DNA of 64,000 nt from assembly GCF_024734405.1 (NCBI RefSeq), contig NZ_CP059556.1:3286001-3350000 (forward strand), written 5' to 3'. Below the pieces are notes generated by a model. It was not told the origin of the DNA. It was given only the letters and a program-made list of their open reading frames with translations, and searched no databases. Below are positions 55,429 through 60,650 of this stretch, one piece after another (positions within the stretch are counted from its first letter, which is position 1; each line of letters opens with the position of its first letter). The stretch is from Saccharopolyspora gregorii. Lineage in GTDB: Bacteria > Actinomycetota > Actinomycetes > Mycobacteriales > Pseudonocardiaceae. The position numbers and the translations under genes are program-made.

Positions 55429-56493
55429 TCAGGCCGCCGCGCGCTGTTCGGCGGCCAGGTCGGCGATGGTGATCCGTTCGAGGAAGTCCGCGACGGCGCC
55501 GCCGAGCCGCGTCCACACCGCGTCCCGCTCGGCGTCGTCGTGCCGGGAGGTCACCGCGCCTTCGACGACGCGGACCACGTCGGCGAGGGTGATCTCCGCG
55601 GCGTCCCGCGCCGGCCAGTAGCCGCCTTCGCAGCCGCGCTGGCTGTGCACGAGGCCGCCGCGGCGCAGCTCCACCATCAGGTTCACCAGCGAGTTCAGCG
55701 GGATCCCCTGGGTGCGGGCCATCGATTCGCAGGTCTGCTGCCTGCCGCTGCTCGCCAGCTCCACCAGGGCGCGCACCGAGTAGTCGACGCGCGCGGAGAT
55801 GTGCACGGGCGCGGCGCGGCGCACCCGGGTGCTCCTGGTCGCGGCCACCTCCGGCAGCACCACGGCGCCCTTGGCGATCTCCTCGCAGAACAGCACGATC
55901 CGGGCGGCGACGCTGCGGTGCACCTTGTCGTTGAGCACGTCGTGCACGCCGTCCTTGAACACCGCGGTGCTGGCCTGCGGGTGCGCGGCGCCGAGCCGGG
56001 TGACCGGGTCGACGGGCGCGATGGCGTCGGCATCGCCGTGCAGCAGCAGCACCGGCACGTCCGGGAGCCGCTGCGGCGGTTCGGCGGTGCCCGCGTCGAG
56101 CTCGCCCCAGTGGAAGTCCGGGTCGGCGCTGAGCCGCTCGCGGTGGATCGGGCAGGAGGTGCGGGCGGCGATCTCGTCCTCGCGCCCGGCGGGCGCACCG
56201 GGCGCCGCGGCCAGCGGGGTGCCCGCCAGCACCAGCCCGTCCACCTCGGTCTCCAGCGCGGTCTCCCAGGCGCGCAGCGCACCGGTGTCGGTGCCGACGA
56301 GGATGCGGGCGGTGTCGCCCGCCCCGTCGAACCAGTCGGCCGGTGCGGTGCCGAGGTCCGGGACGACGACGGTGTAGCCGTCGACGGCGAGCCTGCGGCC
56401 GAACCGCTCGTACAGGCCGGGGTGTTCGCCCCGCCCGTGCAGCACCACGACGTGGCCCCGCGAAACGGTCTCCGGCACCCAGCTGCGGGTCAT
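55429..56493 (-). CDS. Alpha/beta hydrolase fused to an Rrf2 family regulator
   Basis: A 354-residue protein with two halves. Residues ~10-205 are an alpha/beta hydrolase: HVVVLHGRGEHPGLYERFGR, the nucleophile elbow VGTDTGAL (Asp instead of the usual Ser), acid region LLLHGDADAIAPVDP and His in KDGVHDVLND. Residues ~230-354 are a complete Rrf2 winged helix: ISARVDYSVRALVELASSG, MARTQGIPLNSLVNLMVEL and GYWPARDAAEITLADVVRVV. The three Fe-S cysteines of IscR/NsrR are absent, as in cysteine-sensing CymR. In a sulfonate operon it is probably the sulfur regulator, with the hydrolase domain as a possible sensor or as an enzyme. ATG at 56493 is chosen. Confidence 0.82.
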   Translation of the reverse strand: MTRSWVPETVSRGHVVVLHGRGEHPGLYERFGRRLAVDGYTVVVPDLGTAPADWFDGAGDTARILVGTDTGALRAWETALETEVDGLVLAGTPLAAAPGAPAGREDEIAARTSCPIHRERLSADPDFHWGELDAGTAEPPQRLPDVPVLLLHGDADAIAPVDPVTRLGAAHPQASTAVFKDGVHDVLNDKVHRSVAARIVLFCEEIAKGAVVLPEVAATRSTRVRRAAPVHISARVDYSVRALVELASSGRQQTCESMARTQGIPLNSLVNLMVELRRGGLVHSQRGCEGGYWPARDAAEITLADVVRVVEGAVTSRHDDAERDAVWTRLGGAVADFLERITIADLAAEQRAAA

Positions 56494-56557
56494 CTCGACT
56501 CCATTCGTTCCGTGCCCGGCATCATGCACCCCCGGGCGACCCGGCGGTCCGGCGCGC

Positions 56558-57676
56558 TCACGCCGGTGTCCGCTCGGCGGCGCCCGCGCGGCGCGCCACT
56601 TCTTCGCGGACGGCGGGGATGAGCTCCCGGCCGTAGTCGATGGCGTCGTCCAGCGGGTCGTAGCCGCGGATGAGCAGCGTGGTCACCCCGATGTCCACGT
56701 AGTCGGCGAGCGCCTTCGCGACGGTCTCGGCGGTGCCGACGAGCGCGGTGGAGTTCCCGGCCGCGTTGGTGGCCTGCGAGGTCGGGGTCCACAGCGCCCG
56801 GTCGTGCAGCTCGCCCTTGGCGGCCGCTGCCAGCAGGCGCTGCGAGCCGACGTTGGCGACCTCCGAGTCCTTGCCCAGCGTCTTCGGCCCGGTGAAGGAG
56901 CCGAACCCGCCGCGAGCGGCCCGGATCCGGTCCAGCACGGAGTGCGCGCGCTCCCAGGCGAGTTCCTCGGTGGCGCCGAGGATGGGCCGGAACGACACGC
57001 TGATGCCGGGCACGTCGGTGCGTCCGGCGGCCCGCGCGGCGGCGCGGACGGAGGCGATCTGCTCGGCGGTCTCGGCCAGCGGCTCGCCCCACAGCGCGAA
57101 CACGTCGGCGTGCTTGCCGCCGACCCGGTAGGCCGCCGCGGAGGAACCGCCGAAGTACAGCGGGATCCGGGGCCGCTGCACGGGTTTCACCGCGGTGCTG
57201 AAGTCCTCGATCCGGTAGTTCGGCCCGTCGTGGTCGATCGGCCCGTCCTCGGTCCACGCCCGCTCGAGCACCTCCAGGTACTCGTCGGTGCGCGCGTAGC
57301 GCTGCTCCTTGTCCAGGTGGTCGCCGTCGCGGCGTTGGTCGGCGTCGCTGCCGCCGGAGATGACGTGCACCGCGATCCGCCCGCCGGACAGCGCGTCCAG
57401 CGTGGCGAAGGTCCGCGCGGCCAGCGTGGGTGCCACGAATCCGGGCCGGTGCGCGATGAGCAGCCCGAGCCGGTCGGTGTGCGCGGCGACGTGCGCGGCC
57501 AGCTGGGTGCCGTCCGGGGATCCGGAGCCGTGGCCGATGAGGACCCGGTCGAAGCCGCCGTCCTCGTGGGCGCGGGCGAAGCGGCGCAGGAACGCCGGGT
57601 CCACGGCGGGGCCGCTCGCCGGGTGGATCTCGGAGACGTGCTGGGCGCCGATCATGCCGACGATTTCCACACTCAT
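56558..57676 (-). CDS. ssuD: FMNH2-dependent alkanesulfonate monooxygenase-like enzyme (SsuD family)
   Basis: A 372-residue LLM enzyme of SsuD length. It shows FDRVLIGHGSGSPDGTQLAA, LLIAHRPGFVAPTLAARTFA, HVISGGSDADQRRDGDHLDK, and RIPLYFGGSSAAAYRVGGKH. SsuD releases sulfite from alkanesulfonates using FMNH2 from a separate reductase, which is not encoded here. ATG at 57676 is 85 bp after the ssuB stop. Its place behind ssuCB and a sulfur leader peptide supports sulfur scavenging; dimethylsulfone or related substrates are also possible. Confidence 0.87.
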   Translation of the reverse strand: MSVEIVGMIGAQHVSEIHPASGPAVDPAFLRRFARAHEDGGFDRVLIGHGSGSPDGTQLAAHVAAHTDRLGLLIAHRPGFVAPTLAARTFATLDALSGGRIAVHVISGGSDADQRRDGDHLDKEQRYARTDEYLEVLERAWTEDGPIDHDGPNYRIEDFSTAVKPVQRPRIPLYFGGSSAAAYRVGGKHADVFALWGEPLAETAEQIASVRAAARAAGRTDVPGISVSFRPILGATEELAWERAHSVLDRIRAARGGFGSFTGPKTLGKDSEVANVGSQRLLAAAAKGELHDRALWTPTSQATNAAGNSTALVGTAETVAKALADYVDIGVTTLLIRGYDPLDDAIDYGRELIPAVREEVARRAGAAERTPA

Positions 57677-57760: not shown

Positions 57761-58549
57761 TCAGTGCACGCCGAGCCACGAGAGGAGTTCGGCGCGCTGG
57801 GCGACGAACGCGGGCGCGGCCACGTCGCGCGGGCGGGGGTGCTCGACGAGCTGGTCGTGCACGATGCCGCCGCCGTCGAGCACCAGCACCCGGTCGGCGA
57901 GCAGCAGCGCCTCCTCCACGTCGTGGGTGACGAGCAGGATCGCGCAGCCGTGCCGCTGCCACAGCTCCCCCACCAGCGCCTGCACCTTGATCCGGGTGAG
58001 CGCGTCGAGCGCGGAGAACGGTTCGTCGAGCAGCAGCAGGTCCGGTTCCCGCACCAGGGCGCGGGCCAGCGACGCGCGCTGCGCCTCGCCGCCGGAGAGC
58101 ACCTTCGGCCACTCGTCGACCCGGTGCCCGAGGCCCACCTCCTCCAGCGCCGCCACGGCCTTGGCCCGGTCCGGCCTGCCGCGCAGGCCGAGGACCACGT
58201 TGCGCCACACCCGCTTCCACGGCAGCAGCCGCGGCGCTTGGAAGGCGACGGCGCGCCGCTGGGCGACCCGCACCTCGCCGCTGATCTCGTGGTCGAGGTC
58301 GGCGAGGATGCGCAGCAGGGTGCTCTTGCCGCAGCCGCTGGGGCCGAGCAGAGCGACGAACTGGCCGGGTTCGATGTCCAGGTCCAGGCCGTCGAGCACG
58401 GTGCGGTCGCCGAAGCTCTTGGTGAGCCCGCGCACGGAGGCCGCCGACTCGGCGGGCGCGGTGGCCACCGCGACGCCGGTGGGCTCGGGGGTCACCTGGT
58501 CGGTGTCGGGTGCGGATTCGGTCACGCTCCGCGGAAAGCCGGTCGCCAT
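57761..58549 (-). CDS. ssuB: Sulfonate ABC transporter ATP-binding protein
   Basis: A 262-residue ATPase with Walker A LLGPSGCGKSTLLRIL (~residues 70-85), Q-loop AFQAPRLLPWKRVWRNVVLG, signature LSGGEAQRASLARALV, Walker B LLLLDEPFSALDALT and H-loop VTHDVEEALLLADRVLV. The 'PRLLPW' Q-loop segment is typical of SsuB/TauB. Start ATG at 58549 overlaps ssuC by 28 bp. No periplasmic SsuA is present in this cluster, so the binding protein must be elsewhere. Confidence 0.92.
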   Translation of the reverse strand: MATGFPRSVTESAPDTDQVTPEPTGVAVATAPAESAASVRGLTKSFGDRTVLDGLDLDIEPGQFVALLGPSGCGKSTLLRILADLDHEISGEVRVAQRRAVAFQAPRLLPWKRVWRNVVLGLRGRPDRAKAVAALEEVGLGHRVDEWPKVLSGGEAQRASLARALVREPDLLLLDEPFSALDALTRIKVQALVGELWQRHGCAILLVTHDVEEALLLADRVLVLDGGGIVHDQLVEHPRPRDVAAPAFVAQRAELLSWLGVH

Positions 58550-59391
58550 GCCAGCATGGTCCTTTCGAGAAGTCGGACGAGGAAGTCGGCCACCAGGCCG
58601 AGCAGGGCGTAGAGCACCAGGCACACGACGATCACGTCGGTCTGGAAGAACTCGCGGGCCATGTTCATCTCGTAGCCGATGCCGGCCGTCGCGTTGATCG
58701 TCTCGCCGAACACCAGCGCCAGCCACGCCGAGCCGAGCGAGAACCGCAGCCCCACCAGCGCGTTCGGCATCGCCGCAGGCAGGATCACGTGCCGCACCTG
58801 GGCGAACCAGCCGAGCCCGAGGGTCTTGGCCGCTTCGACCAGCCCGGCGTCCACGTTGCGGATGCCGCCGAAGATGTTCATGTACAGCGGGAAGGTCACC
58901 GCGAGCGCGATGAGCACGATCTTCGGCGTCTCCCCGATCCCGAACCAGATGATCAGCAGCGGGATGAGGCCGATCACCGGCACGGTGCGCAACATCTGCA
59001 TCGGGGCGTCGGCGATGTCCTCCCCGCGCCGGAACAGCCCGGAGAGGGTCGCGAGCACGACGGCGGCGACCAGGCCGAAGACGAGGCCGACCGCGACGCG
59101 CTGCACCGAGGCGAGCACCGCGTCCTGCAACCGGCCCTCCTGCCACATCTCCCAGGCGGTGGCGGCGACCGTGCCCGGGGAGGCGAGCGTGTCGTCGTCG
59201 AGGACACCGGTGGAGCTGAGCACCTGCCACAGCACGATCAGCCCGATCGGGCTGAAGGTCTTGACCAGCCAGCGGGGCAGCCGCTGCTCCCCCTTGGCCC
59301 GATCGGTGCGCACCGTCGTGACGGGTATCGCGCCGGGGCCGGGGCCGGGGCCGGTGTCGGATCGGGCGCTCTCGGGCGCTGGCAAGGTCAT
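58522..59391 (-). CDS. ssuC: Sulfonate ABC transporter permease
   Basis: A 289-residue inner-membrane permease with six helices. A ~40-residue hydrophilic N-terminus precedes FSPIGLIVLWQVLSSTGVLD; the conserved EAA loop is AAKTLGLGWFAQVRHVILPA, followed by MPNALVGLRFSLGSAWLALVF, characteristic of SsuC/TauC. ATG at 59391 has GGAG at 7-nt spacing; GTG at 59397 is also possible. It is the first large gene of the operon; 157 nt upstream lies a 25-codon leader. Confidence 0.92.
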   Translation of the reverse strand: MTLPAPESARSDTGPGPGPGAIPVTTVRTDRAKGEQRLPRWLVKTFSPIGLIVLWQVLSSTGVLDDDTLASPGTVAATAWEMWQEGRLQDAVLASVQRVAVGLVFGLVAAVVLATLSGLFRRGEDIADAPMQMLRTVPVIGLIPLLIIWFGIGETPKIVLIALAVTFPLYMNIFGGIRNVDAGLVEAAKTLGLGWFAQVRHVILPAAMPNALVGLRFSLGSAWLALVFGETINATAGIGYEMNMAREFFQTDVIVVCLVLYALLGLVADFLVRLLERTMLAWRPAFRGA

Positions 59392-59548
59392 CGTCACGCT
59401 CCACTGGCATGCGGGGAGGCGGCACCGGCCGGGTTCGGCGCGGTGCGGCGGAGTTCGAGGGCGCGTCGGCGTCGACGCGGTACCGGGCGCTCCGGTTCGG
59501 GAGCGGCCGTGCGGTGCGGAGTGCCCGGGGCCGGGCGGGAGGAAGGGC

Positions 59549-59626
59549 TCAGGCGCTACAGAGCGCGGAGGACACTCGGGCGAAATCCACGTATCCGCGC
59601 GTGGTGAGCGTCGACGTCCGGGCCAT
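59549..59626 (-). CDS. Putative sulfur-responsive leader peptide, 25 aa
   Basis: The frame ATG...TGA at 59626-59549 encodes MARTSTLTTRG then YVDFARVSSALCSA. This matches the actinobacterial 'putative leader peptide' pattern seen upstream of sulfur and cysteine genes, with LTTR, VDF-x-R and SSALC before the stop. A perfect GCCCGG-GG-CCGGGC hairpin (59523-59536) lies just past the stop, and a second GC hairpin (59462-59479) precedes ssuC. The likely role is translation-coupled attenuation of the ssu operon by ribosome stalling, perhaps at the Cys codon near the end. The ATG has a promoter 6 nt upstream, so it is leaderless. Confidence 0.8.
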   Translation of the reverse strand: MARTSTLTTRGYVDFARVSSALCSA

Positions 59627-59632
59627 GCGATC

Positions 59633-59662
59633 ACGGTAGCCACGCGCCGCGCCCGCTGTAAA
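59633..59662 (-). promoter_or_regulatory. Promoter of the sulfonate operon
   Basis: On the minus strand: -35 TTTACA (59657-59662, 5/6 to TTGACA), 18-nt spacer, -10 TACCGT (59633-59638), then 6 nt to the leader peptide ATG at 59626. The expected transcription start coincides with that ATG. Confidence 0.65.
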
Positions 59663-59795
59663 CCCAACCCGGCACGACAGGATTGACCTCTCGGATGGTG
59701 GGACTCCGCCGGGCAGCCCCCCGCACCGGCGATCGGACGGGCAGGAGAACCCCTAGAAGGCCCGCGGAACGGGCGGGCGGGCCGCGCGGCTCGGA

Positions 59796-59810: not shown

Positions 59811-60650
59811 ATGAGCTCCGGCGAACTGCTGGCCGTCAGCGATCTGCACGTCGCGATGGCCGAGAACAAGGACATCGCGCGCGGGCTGCGGCCCCGCACC
59901 GACGAGGACTGGCTGATCGTCGCGGGCGACGTGGGCGAGCTGTCCGAGGACATCTCCTGGGCGCTGGGCATGCTCGCCGAGCGGTTCGCGAAGGTCATCT
60001 GGGTTCCCGGCAACCACGAGCTGTGGACGCCGAAGCAGGACCCGCTGCAGCTGCGCGGCGAAGCCCGCTACCTGGAACTGGTGCGCCGCTGCCGCGAACT
60101 CGGCGTCGTCACGCCGGAGGACGAGTTCCCGGTGTGGACCGGGCGCGGCGGGCCGGTGACGATCGCGCCGCTGTTCGTGCTCTACGACTACACGTTCCGC
60201 CCCGCCGGGACCTCCACGAAGGAGGAGGCGCTGGCGGTCGCGCACGAGTCGGGCGTGGTGTGCAGCGACGAGTTCCTGCTGCACCCCGATCCGCACCCGA
60301 CCCGCGACGACTGGTGCCGGGCCCGGCTGTCCTACAGCGAGCGCCGGCTCGCCGAGTGCGACCCGGAACTGCCGACGGTGCTGGTGAACCACTACCCGCT
60401 GGTGCGCGAACCCACCGACGTGCTCTGGTACCCGCAGTTCGCGCAGTGGTGCGGCACGGTACACACCGCCGACTGGCACCTGCGGCACCGGGCGGCCGCG
60501 GTCGTCTACGGGCACCTGCACATCCCGCGCACCACCTGGCACGACGGCGTGCGGTTCCAGGAGGTGTCGGTGGGCTACCCGCGCGAGTGGAAGCGGCACG
60601 GGCTGCCGGACGATCCGCTGCGCCTGGTCTTCCCGGAGGAGACGTCGTGA
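59811..60650 (+). CDS. Calcineurin-like metallophosphoesterase
   Basis: A 279-residue phosphoesterase with the full metal set: LLAVSDLHVAM (Asp-x-His), IVAGDVGE (Gly-Asp), VPGNHELW (Gly-Asn-His-Glu), NHYPLVREPTD and VVYGHLHIPRT (Gly-His-x-His). Its gene overlaps the phosphopantetheinyl transferase start (GTGA). This pairing is common in actinomycetes with polyketide or siderophore pathways; one guess is hydrolysis of holo-ACP or of a CoA-related product, but substrate is unknown. The ATG at 59811 follows a -10 box closely. Confidence 0.88.
   Translation: MSSGELLAVSDLHVAMAENKDIARGLRPRTDEDWLIVAGDVGELSEDISWALGMLAERFAKVIWVPGNHELWTPKQDPLQLRGEARYLELVRRCRELGVVTPEDEFPVWTGRGGPVTIAPLFVLYDYTFRPAGTSTKEEALAVAHESGVVCSDEFLLHPDPHPTRDDWCRARLSYSERRLAECDPELPTVLVNHYPLVREPTDVLWYPQFAQWCGTVHTADWHLRHRAAAVVYGHLHIPRTTWHDGVRFQEVSVGYPREWKRHGLPDDPLRLVFPEETS

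Follow-up and report, generated by a model that had tools for sequence, protein, structure and literature searches.

The window, by which we mean the whole 64,000-nucleotide stretch of DNA analysed here, carries on its minus strand a run of sulfonate-transport-like genes headed by a short open reading frame (ORF) and its putative promoter elements. From upstream to downstream, the features are the following.

59657..59662, minus strand: -35-like element TTTACA, with an 18-nt spacer to the -10 element (GTTTAC in 16 of 17 orthologues)
59633..59638, minus strand: -10 element TACCGT, 6 nt before the ATG (TANNNT in 17 of 17 orthologues)
59549..59626, minus strand: leader peptide ORF, 25 amino acids plus stop, MARTSTLTTRGYVDFARVSSALCSA (translation, profile match, synteny, pN/pS)
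59558..59560, minus strand: conserved Cys23 codon, TGT (kept in orthologues, own-genome leaders and the family)
59392..59548, minus strand: spacer from the leader stop to ssuC, C-over-G skew 0.31 (candidate Rho-utilisation stretch, a putative function)
58522..59391, minus strand: ssuC-like sulfonate ABC transporter permease, 289 amino acids (BPD_transp_1; NF008470 SsuC, E 7.8e-72)
57761..58549, minus strand: ssuB-like ABC transporter ATPase (ABC_tran; overlaps the ssuC end; start picked by script)
56558..57676, minus strand: luciferase-family monooxygenase (Bac_luciferase, E 2e-72; ssuD-like by context)
55429..56529, minus strand: one ORF with an alpha/beta-hydrolase part and an Rrf2 regulator domain (Hydrolase_4, Rrf2)

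Against the SsuC model NF008470 the permease scores 241.8 bits, below the model cut-off of 347. In the most distal ORF, the alpha/beta-hydrolase match covers residues 23-58 and the Rrf2 match residues 244-360; this is possibly a fused regulator closing the ssu gene run, and gene order and strand suggest that it could be the last gene of the ssu operon. No binding-protein gene was seen with the ssuCB operon of the window. An SsuA-family gene approximately 144 kb away in the same genome (C1:3489353, L003) has a leader of its own, MPQRPMLTTRGHVDLSRVASALCPR, with a closely similar promoter, and may supply the binding protein to the window operon. On the other side, a divergent metallophosphoesterase ORF begins at 59811, so that the leader promoter sits between both ORFs.

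Read along the minus strand from 59626 to 59549, the small ORF comprises 25 codons from ATG, followed by TGA; translation of 59549-59626 in frame 1 of the plus strand gave no leader-like peptide. A single Cys codon is present, without a run of Cys codons near the stop, and the leader stop is separated from the ssuC ATG (59391) by 157 nt, just as an earlier note on this DNA, which named no strand, had stated. The peptide matches the NCBIfam model NF042934, 'putative leader peptide' (cis_reg_atten), over positions 1-19 of 19 with an E value of 3.3e-5. Its score of 23.4 bits falls below the curated cut-off of 27, as does that of an orthologue (22.9 bits), which makes it plausible that gene callers miss the ORF. 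The models NF042933 (Ms5788A) and NF042936 (Ms4527A) gave no match to the window peptide at E ≤ 10, an Rfam search returned a single match (E 5.5) far below gathering, and a plasmid collection searched with the leader DNA yielded no match.

The leader is conserved together with the gene that it precedes. The comparison covered 19 ssuC orthologues for which upstream sequence was available, 13 of them named and six belonging to the genus (including that of the window); left out were, from 15 named loci, L035 (without upstream sequence) and L037 (weak, and from another phylum), and, from eight genus rows, two paralogues at 43-44% identity, and one species is possibly sampled twice among the 19. 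The closest named relatives of the window ssuC belong to Saccharopolyspora species, family Pseudonocardiaceae. Upstream of ssuC in 17 of the 19 orthologues lies a leader with matching peptide, promoter and position, and in these 17 TANNNT invariably stands 6 or 7 nt before the leader start, with GTTTAC in all but one. Such promoter geometry is in line with the leaderless arrangement claimed in the earlier note (-10 TACCGT, 6 nt, ATG), and from it we infer a leaderless start; the TTTACA element further upstream does not figure in that note. A strict sigma-70 scan of 59380-59720, which demands a TATAAT-like hexamer, found no promoter.

Within the leader, pN/pS is 0.19 for the core (codons 7-23) and 1.1 and 1.4 for the two ends, and codons 7-23 give 1.5 and 2.3 when read in the two other frames (16 of the 17 leaders, 13 distinct sequences; L030, one codon shorter, was left out). 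A low value in the core together with high values in the other frames indicates that selection acts on the leader peptide. The remaining two orthologues lack the leader. In S. shandongensis (L026, 1-326), the end of an IS110-family transposase occupies the expected site of leader and promoter, at a contig end, and the leader has perhaps been removed naturally; in Pseudonocardia eucalypti (L033, 2440-2500), a similar ssuC promoter is kept and the peptide is gone, perhaps through natural loss.

A functionless ORF arisen by chance would be in keeping with the sub-threshold profile score, but it is contradicted by synteny, by selection and by the conservation of motif and promoter, and we regard it as scarcely credible. 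Very probably, the ORF is a functional, translated leader. As judged from its sequence relationships, it is a real leader peptide and a divergent relative of the named but little-studied family NF042934. The earlier note's proposal of a 25-codon leader, of a kind found before actinobacterial sulfur genes and here placed upstream of a sulfonate operon, has therefore held up on the minus strand, both through conservation (profile match, 17 of 19 orthologues, core pN/pS) and through the NF042934 match combined with gene context.

Searching other upstream regions for homologues, a check suggested along with that proposal, gave 22 NF042934 matches at E ≤ 10 in the window's own genome, of which five with E ≥ 0.2 were dropped and 17 with E ≤ 0.02 kept, 12 of these over the cut-off. 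None of 14 control genomes had a match over the cut-off, and ten of them had matches at E ≤ 10. Sulfur or FMN-monooxygenase genes follow 13 of the 17 own-genome leaders: sulfonate binding proteins, sulfite/nitrite reductase, a TauE transporter, ssuC, FMN monooxygenases, FMN reductase, O-acetylhomoserine sulfhydrylase, cysteine dioxygenase and, as second gene, a sulfurtransferase. The remaining four stand before two symporters, an SCO4226-like protein and a protein without family match. Behind one own-genome leader that scores 19.1 bits, below the cut-off (L016, C1:1511764), the piece of downstream protein is matched by neither NCBIfam (E ≤ 1e-10) nor Pfam (E ≤ 0.001), and the gene is possibly an unknown sulfur gene.

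Beyond this genome, NF042934 matches were found in 16 of 296 genomes in a search of the phylum (E ≤ 1e-4) and in at least 59 of 60 genomes in a search of the family Pseudonocardiaceae (E ≤ 0.01). From these we assembled a set of 145 leaders, consisting of the 17 own-genome leaders, 28 loci of the phylum search and 100 further stretches, of which 80 came from among the family-search matches listed and 20 from the remaining phylum-search rows; own-genome rows, some near-duplicates and most lower rows of the family search were left out, and many members are close relatives. By Pfam, the 145 downstream proteins include sulfite/nitrite reductase (25), rhodanese (17), SDF symporter (16), luciferase-like (10), TauE (10), NMT1 (10), cysteine dioxygenase (8), ABC permease (8) and others, the downstream genes having been picked by script, with 24 of the 145 picks more than 300 nt away and thus perhaps second genes.

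A single Asp-Cys spacing fits 144 of the 145 members; the other, L146, ends ahead of the Cys and was left out. Counted from the conserved Cys, Arg stands at -13 in 144 of 144 and at -6 in 143 of 144, with Asp at -9. The rows were anchored by a pattern asking for Asp and Cys, so that just the two Arg are free observations in this set, and the NF042934 profile itself selects conserved residues. A check independent of both anchoring and profile is offered by the ssuC leaders found through synteny, and Arg10, Asp14, Arg17 and Cys23 are present in all 17 of them. Across the family, the synonymous codons of the conserved Arg and Asp vary, and exactly one Cys occurs in 85 of the 144 leaders. TANNNT is found 5-7 nt before the in-frame start in 44 of the 144, compared with 1 of 288 out-of-frame controls; 100 of the 144 fail the strict leaderless-promoter test.

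The codon used for the conserved Cys is unusual. It is TGT in 117 of 144 family leaders and TGC in 27, against a TGT share of 14/251 among the Cys codons of downstream genes (11/177, 3/66 and 0/8 by group) and of 5/135 in 44 predicted genes of the window. All 17 ssuC-leader orthologues have TGT at Cys23, and so do 16 of the 17 leaders of the own genome at the conserved Cys. Other Cys codons are TGT in 4 of 65 cases in non-polycysteine leaders and in 12 of 26 in polycysteine leaders; Cys24, where present (five ssuC orthologues), is TGC, and the ssuC leader of L032 has TGT for Cys19 and TGC for Cys25. The share of T in third position is 0.81 at the conserved Cys codon and does not exceed 0.33 elsewhere among the 15 aligned positions that were counted. 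When each combination of downstream-gene cluster and group casts a single vote, the outcome is 38 for TGT and two for TGC. Among the sampled members from Pseudonocardiaceae, the TGC leaders (n = 26) occur only in the sulfite reductase (17 of 20) and TauE (9 of 10) clusters, every other sampled gene cluster having UGU leaders, and the sulfite reductase leaders of family f5 carry TGT in five of five. A link between UGC use and downstream function is suggestive only, since each of the two TGC groups may descend from a single ancestor.

The connection with cysteine drawn in the earlier note thus finds support in one conserved Cys codon, kept as TGT, and the leader is likely to respond to cysteine or to charged tRNA-Cys. 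These codon data also bear on two other explanations. In ligand-dependent nascent-chain arrest of the TnaC type (the signal of the E. coli tna leader being tryptophan), a free sulfur metabolite such as cysteine would be sensed in the tunnel and the Cys would form part of the arrest motif. Residues held at -6, -9 and -13 from the Cys, at fixed spacing and with free synonymous choice, would be expected of such an arrest, whereas the TGT preference points to decoding of the Cys codon, and the occurrence of TGC in 27 of the 144 leaders likewise tells against it. We know of no ligand for nascent-chain arrest of this kind, and we hold this explanation to be unlikely. That the ORF encodes a functional 25-amino-acid protein with a non-regulatory role would account for the selection on the peptide; however, a role in cis better accommodates both the codon preference at a single Cys and the constant location ahead of many unrelated, mostly sulfur, genes, and the protein explanation appears very improbable.

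On the RNA side, hairpins are indeed predicted between leader and ssuC, as had been noted earlier, and a consensus scan of 59380-59720 found no intrinsic terminator. The earlier note had proposed cysteine-linked translational attenuation. In the form considered here, codons 18-23 (GTGTCCTCCGCGCTCTGT) would pair with the Shine-Dalgarno (SD) sequence and start codon of ssuC, and a ribosome stalled at Cys23 would cover the leader strand of this pairing and so free ssuC. For polycysteine leaders, Canestrari (2020) reportedly proposed that mRNA structure hides the downstream ribosome-binding site (RBS) and that a stalled ribosome frees it. In agreement with such a mechanism, RNAalifold pairs leader codons with the RBS of ssuC in three separate clades, which together hold 14 of the 17 orthologues. 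Further, of 109 RBSs taken from other leader loci, just 12 equal or exceed the pairing at the window locus, and none of the 109 does so in the clade of L024, L042 and L043, where the pairing amounts to -21.7 to -24.8 kcal/mol. Against it, the pairing at the window locus (-16.3) does not surpass that of shuffled RBSs (mean -17.4, with 0.663 of the shuffles equal or lower), and of the window's 38 ordinary RBSs, 21 pair with the leader at least as stably.

The wider set of loci gives a similar picture. Codons around the Cys show no preference for their own RBS over 117 loci (P 0.25, permuted partners), and total SD pairing over 113 loci is not above that of shuffles (0.770 v 0.776). One of four tested segments, C+3..C+24, has a slight own-partner preference (P 0.0145; p 0.81 at cluster level), and anti-SD sequence just after the leader stop is in slight excess over shuffles in the 113 loci (0.172 v 0.125, Wilcoxon p 0.03), an excess on which we do not rely, as seven of the ten highest-scoring rows come from one cluster (cysteine dioxygenase). 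An anti-SD sequence within leader codons 18-23, attractive in the alignment fold, was set aside as a candidate; it is not above shuffled or ordinary RBSs or permuted partners. Translational attenuation keeps some weight by analogy with the M. smegmatis ORFs, which according to a review regulate the translation of genes downstream (PMC9031893). So far, however, the 'translational' element of the earlier proposal is not supported, RBS pairing being equal to controls and the Rho-like spacer composition clear, and we consider this reading rather doubtful.

That composition is an excess of C over G. The skew (C-G)/(C+G) averages 0.232 in 103 leader spacers and 0.011 in 67 other upstream regions (77, minus 10 with the leader motif; p 6e-20), the latter taken from 13 ssuC loci besides the window, and thus from some of the families sampled. 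At 0.31, the window spacer belongs with the former. The contrast persists when positions are matched by their distance to the start codon and when co-directional genes serve as controls, and the skew is positive in 22 of 23 gene clusters; among spacers of ssuC orthologues it is weaker, from 0.04 to 0.31, with one at -0.12. Although an excess of C over G is the classical mark of Rho sites, it could here reflect avoidance of structure rather than Rho. Based on this spacer and on the earlier suggestion of Rho for mycobacterial cys leaders, we lean, at about even odds, towards Rho as the main effector in preference to RBS sequestration, and both may combine.

Comparative sequence evidence is strong for the peptide and codon side and weaker for the RNA side. 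The best explanation, to which we assign a probability of roughly 55%, is a leaderless, cysteine-responsive, ribosome-stalling attenuator, possibly coupled to Rho. Transcription would start at or beside the ATG, and the 25-codon leader would therefore be translated as a leaderless ORF. Given enough charged tRNA-Cys, the ribosome would pass the single UGU (Cys23), terminate and depart, leaving the C-rich, G-poor spacer exposed to Rho, and transcription would end before ssuC. Under cysteine shortage, the ribosome would stall at Cys23 with two sense codons still to be read, a stall assisted by the conserved nascent chain (Arg10, Asp14 and Arg17 at -13, -9 and -6 from the Cys), and by shielding the start of the spacer it would permit expression of ssuC, ssuB and the monooxygenase. 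A ribosome positioned at Cys23 covers just a few nucleotides past the stop, so the masking of a Rho site by the stalled ribosome is not obvious. The sequences themselves establish the ORF, its promoter geometry, the selection on the peptide, the fixed motif, the UGU preference, the C-over-G spacers and the sulfur-gene context, whereas translation, stalling, the signal and Rho as effector are all steps that we infer.

More speculatively, leaders of this type could constitute widespread actinobacterial arrest peptides, mostly with a single Cys, in which the nascent chain R-x3-D-x2-R-x5-C would keep the ribosome poised, one slowly decoded UGU in place of a Cys run would be enough to sense the charging of tRNA-Cys, and the stall would block Rho in the C-rich spacer. 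Codon choice would then set the sensitivity, and the mycobacterial polycysteine leaders would be derived. We put this forward tentatively, as somewhat less probable than its negation.

As far as the literature searched shows, mycobacteria are the only organisms in which cysteine attenuation by leaderless small ORFs has been tested, and the ORFs tested there contain Cys runs. The larger related group described here, from Pseudonocardiaceae and other families of the class, often has one Cys codon, mostly UGU against a background of approximately 4-6%, precisely spaced from three near-invariant residues. Within a limited literature search, we found no earlier description of the single-Cys group, the UGU preference or the C-over-G spacer, and in the literature searched no paper on the mechanism of the NF042934 family. 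It has thereby become testable how one codon can gate an operon, and whether the sequence in which a cell draws on its sulfur sources is tuned by codon choice. The motif also gives a rule for finding hidden leader genes in actinomycetes, and it predicts regulation of many of their sulfonate, sulfone and cysteine genes.

Among known systems, NF042934 is matched over the full 19 profile positions, and its other matches in the own genome share the sulfur-gene context; the difference lies in the score, which at 23.4 bits stays under the cut-off of 27. A predicted Cys-codon ribosome-mediated attenuation is also attributed to the Rhodobacterales cysS leader uORFC-8-2, which has tandem Cys codons, mostly UGC, and an intrinsic terminator (PMC8632094), whereas the window leader has a single UGU and no terminator was found in the region scanned. 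The E. coli tna leader, named in PMC1262725, and toiL-topAI (PMC12121999) resemble the system proposed here in combining a leader ORF, ribosome stalling and Rho as effector, with Rho a putative partner in our case. In topAI, translation control and Rho act jointly, and toiL-topAI differs in having antibiotics as its signal (PMC12121999).

The polycysteine leaders form another group for comparison. Seliverstov (2005) described them for cys operons of mycobacteria and P. acnes and for cbs of B. longum; they are without terminator hairpins, and Rho with poly-pyrimidine sites is suggested, the prediction being graded 'rather weak' (PMC1262725). Those leaders have runs of Cys codons near the stop (PMC1262725), whereas the window leader has one UGU, and the C-over-G spacer was measured here over many loci. 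In M. smegmatis, translation of downstream genes is adjusted to cysteine supply by ORFs that have contiguous Cys codons (PMC9031893), and ribosomes occupy a small ORF with a Cys cluster that lies upstream of cysA2/Msmeg_5788 (PMC4633059); the work of Canestrari (2020) on mycobacterial leaderless polycysteine small ORFs is cited by PMC13236596 and PMC9031893. The mycobacterial small ORFs (Ms5788A, NF042933; Ms4527A, NF042936) share with the window leader a short ORF before sulfur genes and differ in their runs of Cys codons, compared with one Cys here. The window peptide, lacking such a run, is therefore not filed among them. Polycysteine members nevertheless carry the LTKRRAVDLCRV core seen in the window family and match both NF042933 and NF042934. 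Leaders from a family of the same order (at a guess, f2 is mycobacterial and f5 Streptomyces-like) read LTKRRAVDLCRVAGCCCCCC and match NF042934 as well as the Ms5788A 'Cys-rich leader peptide' model, and thus mycobacterial polycysteine leaders carry the R/D/R/C motif. By analogy, the window leader may well work like the mycobacterial polycysteine attenuators.
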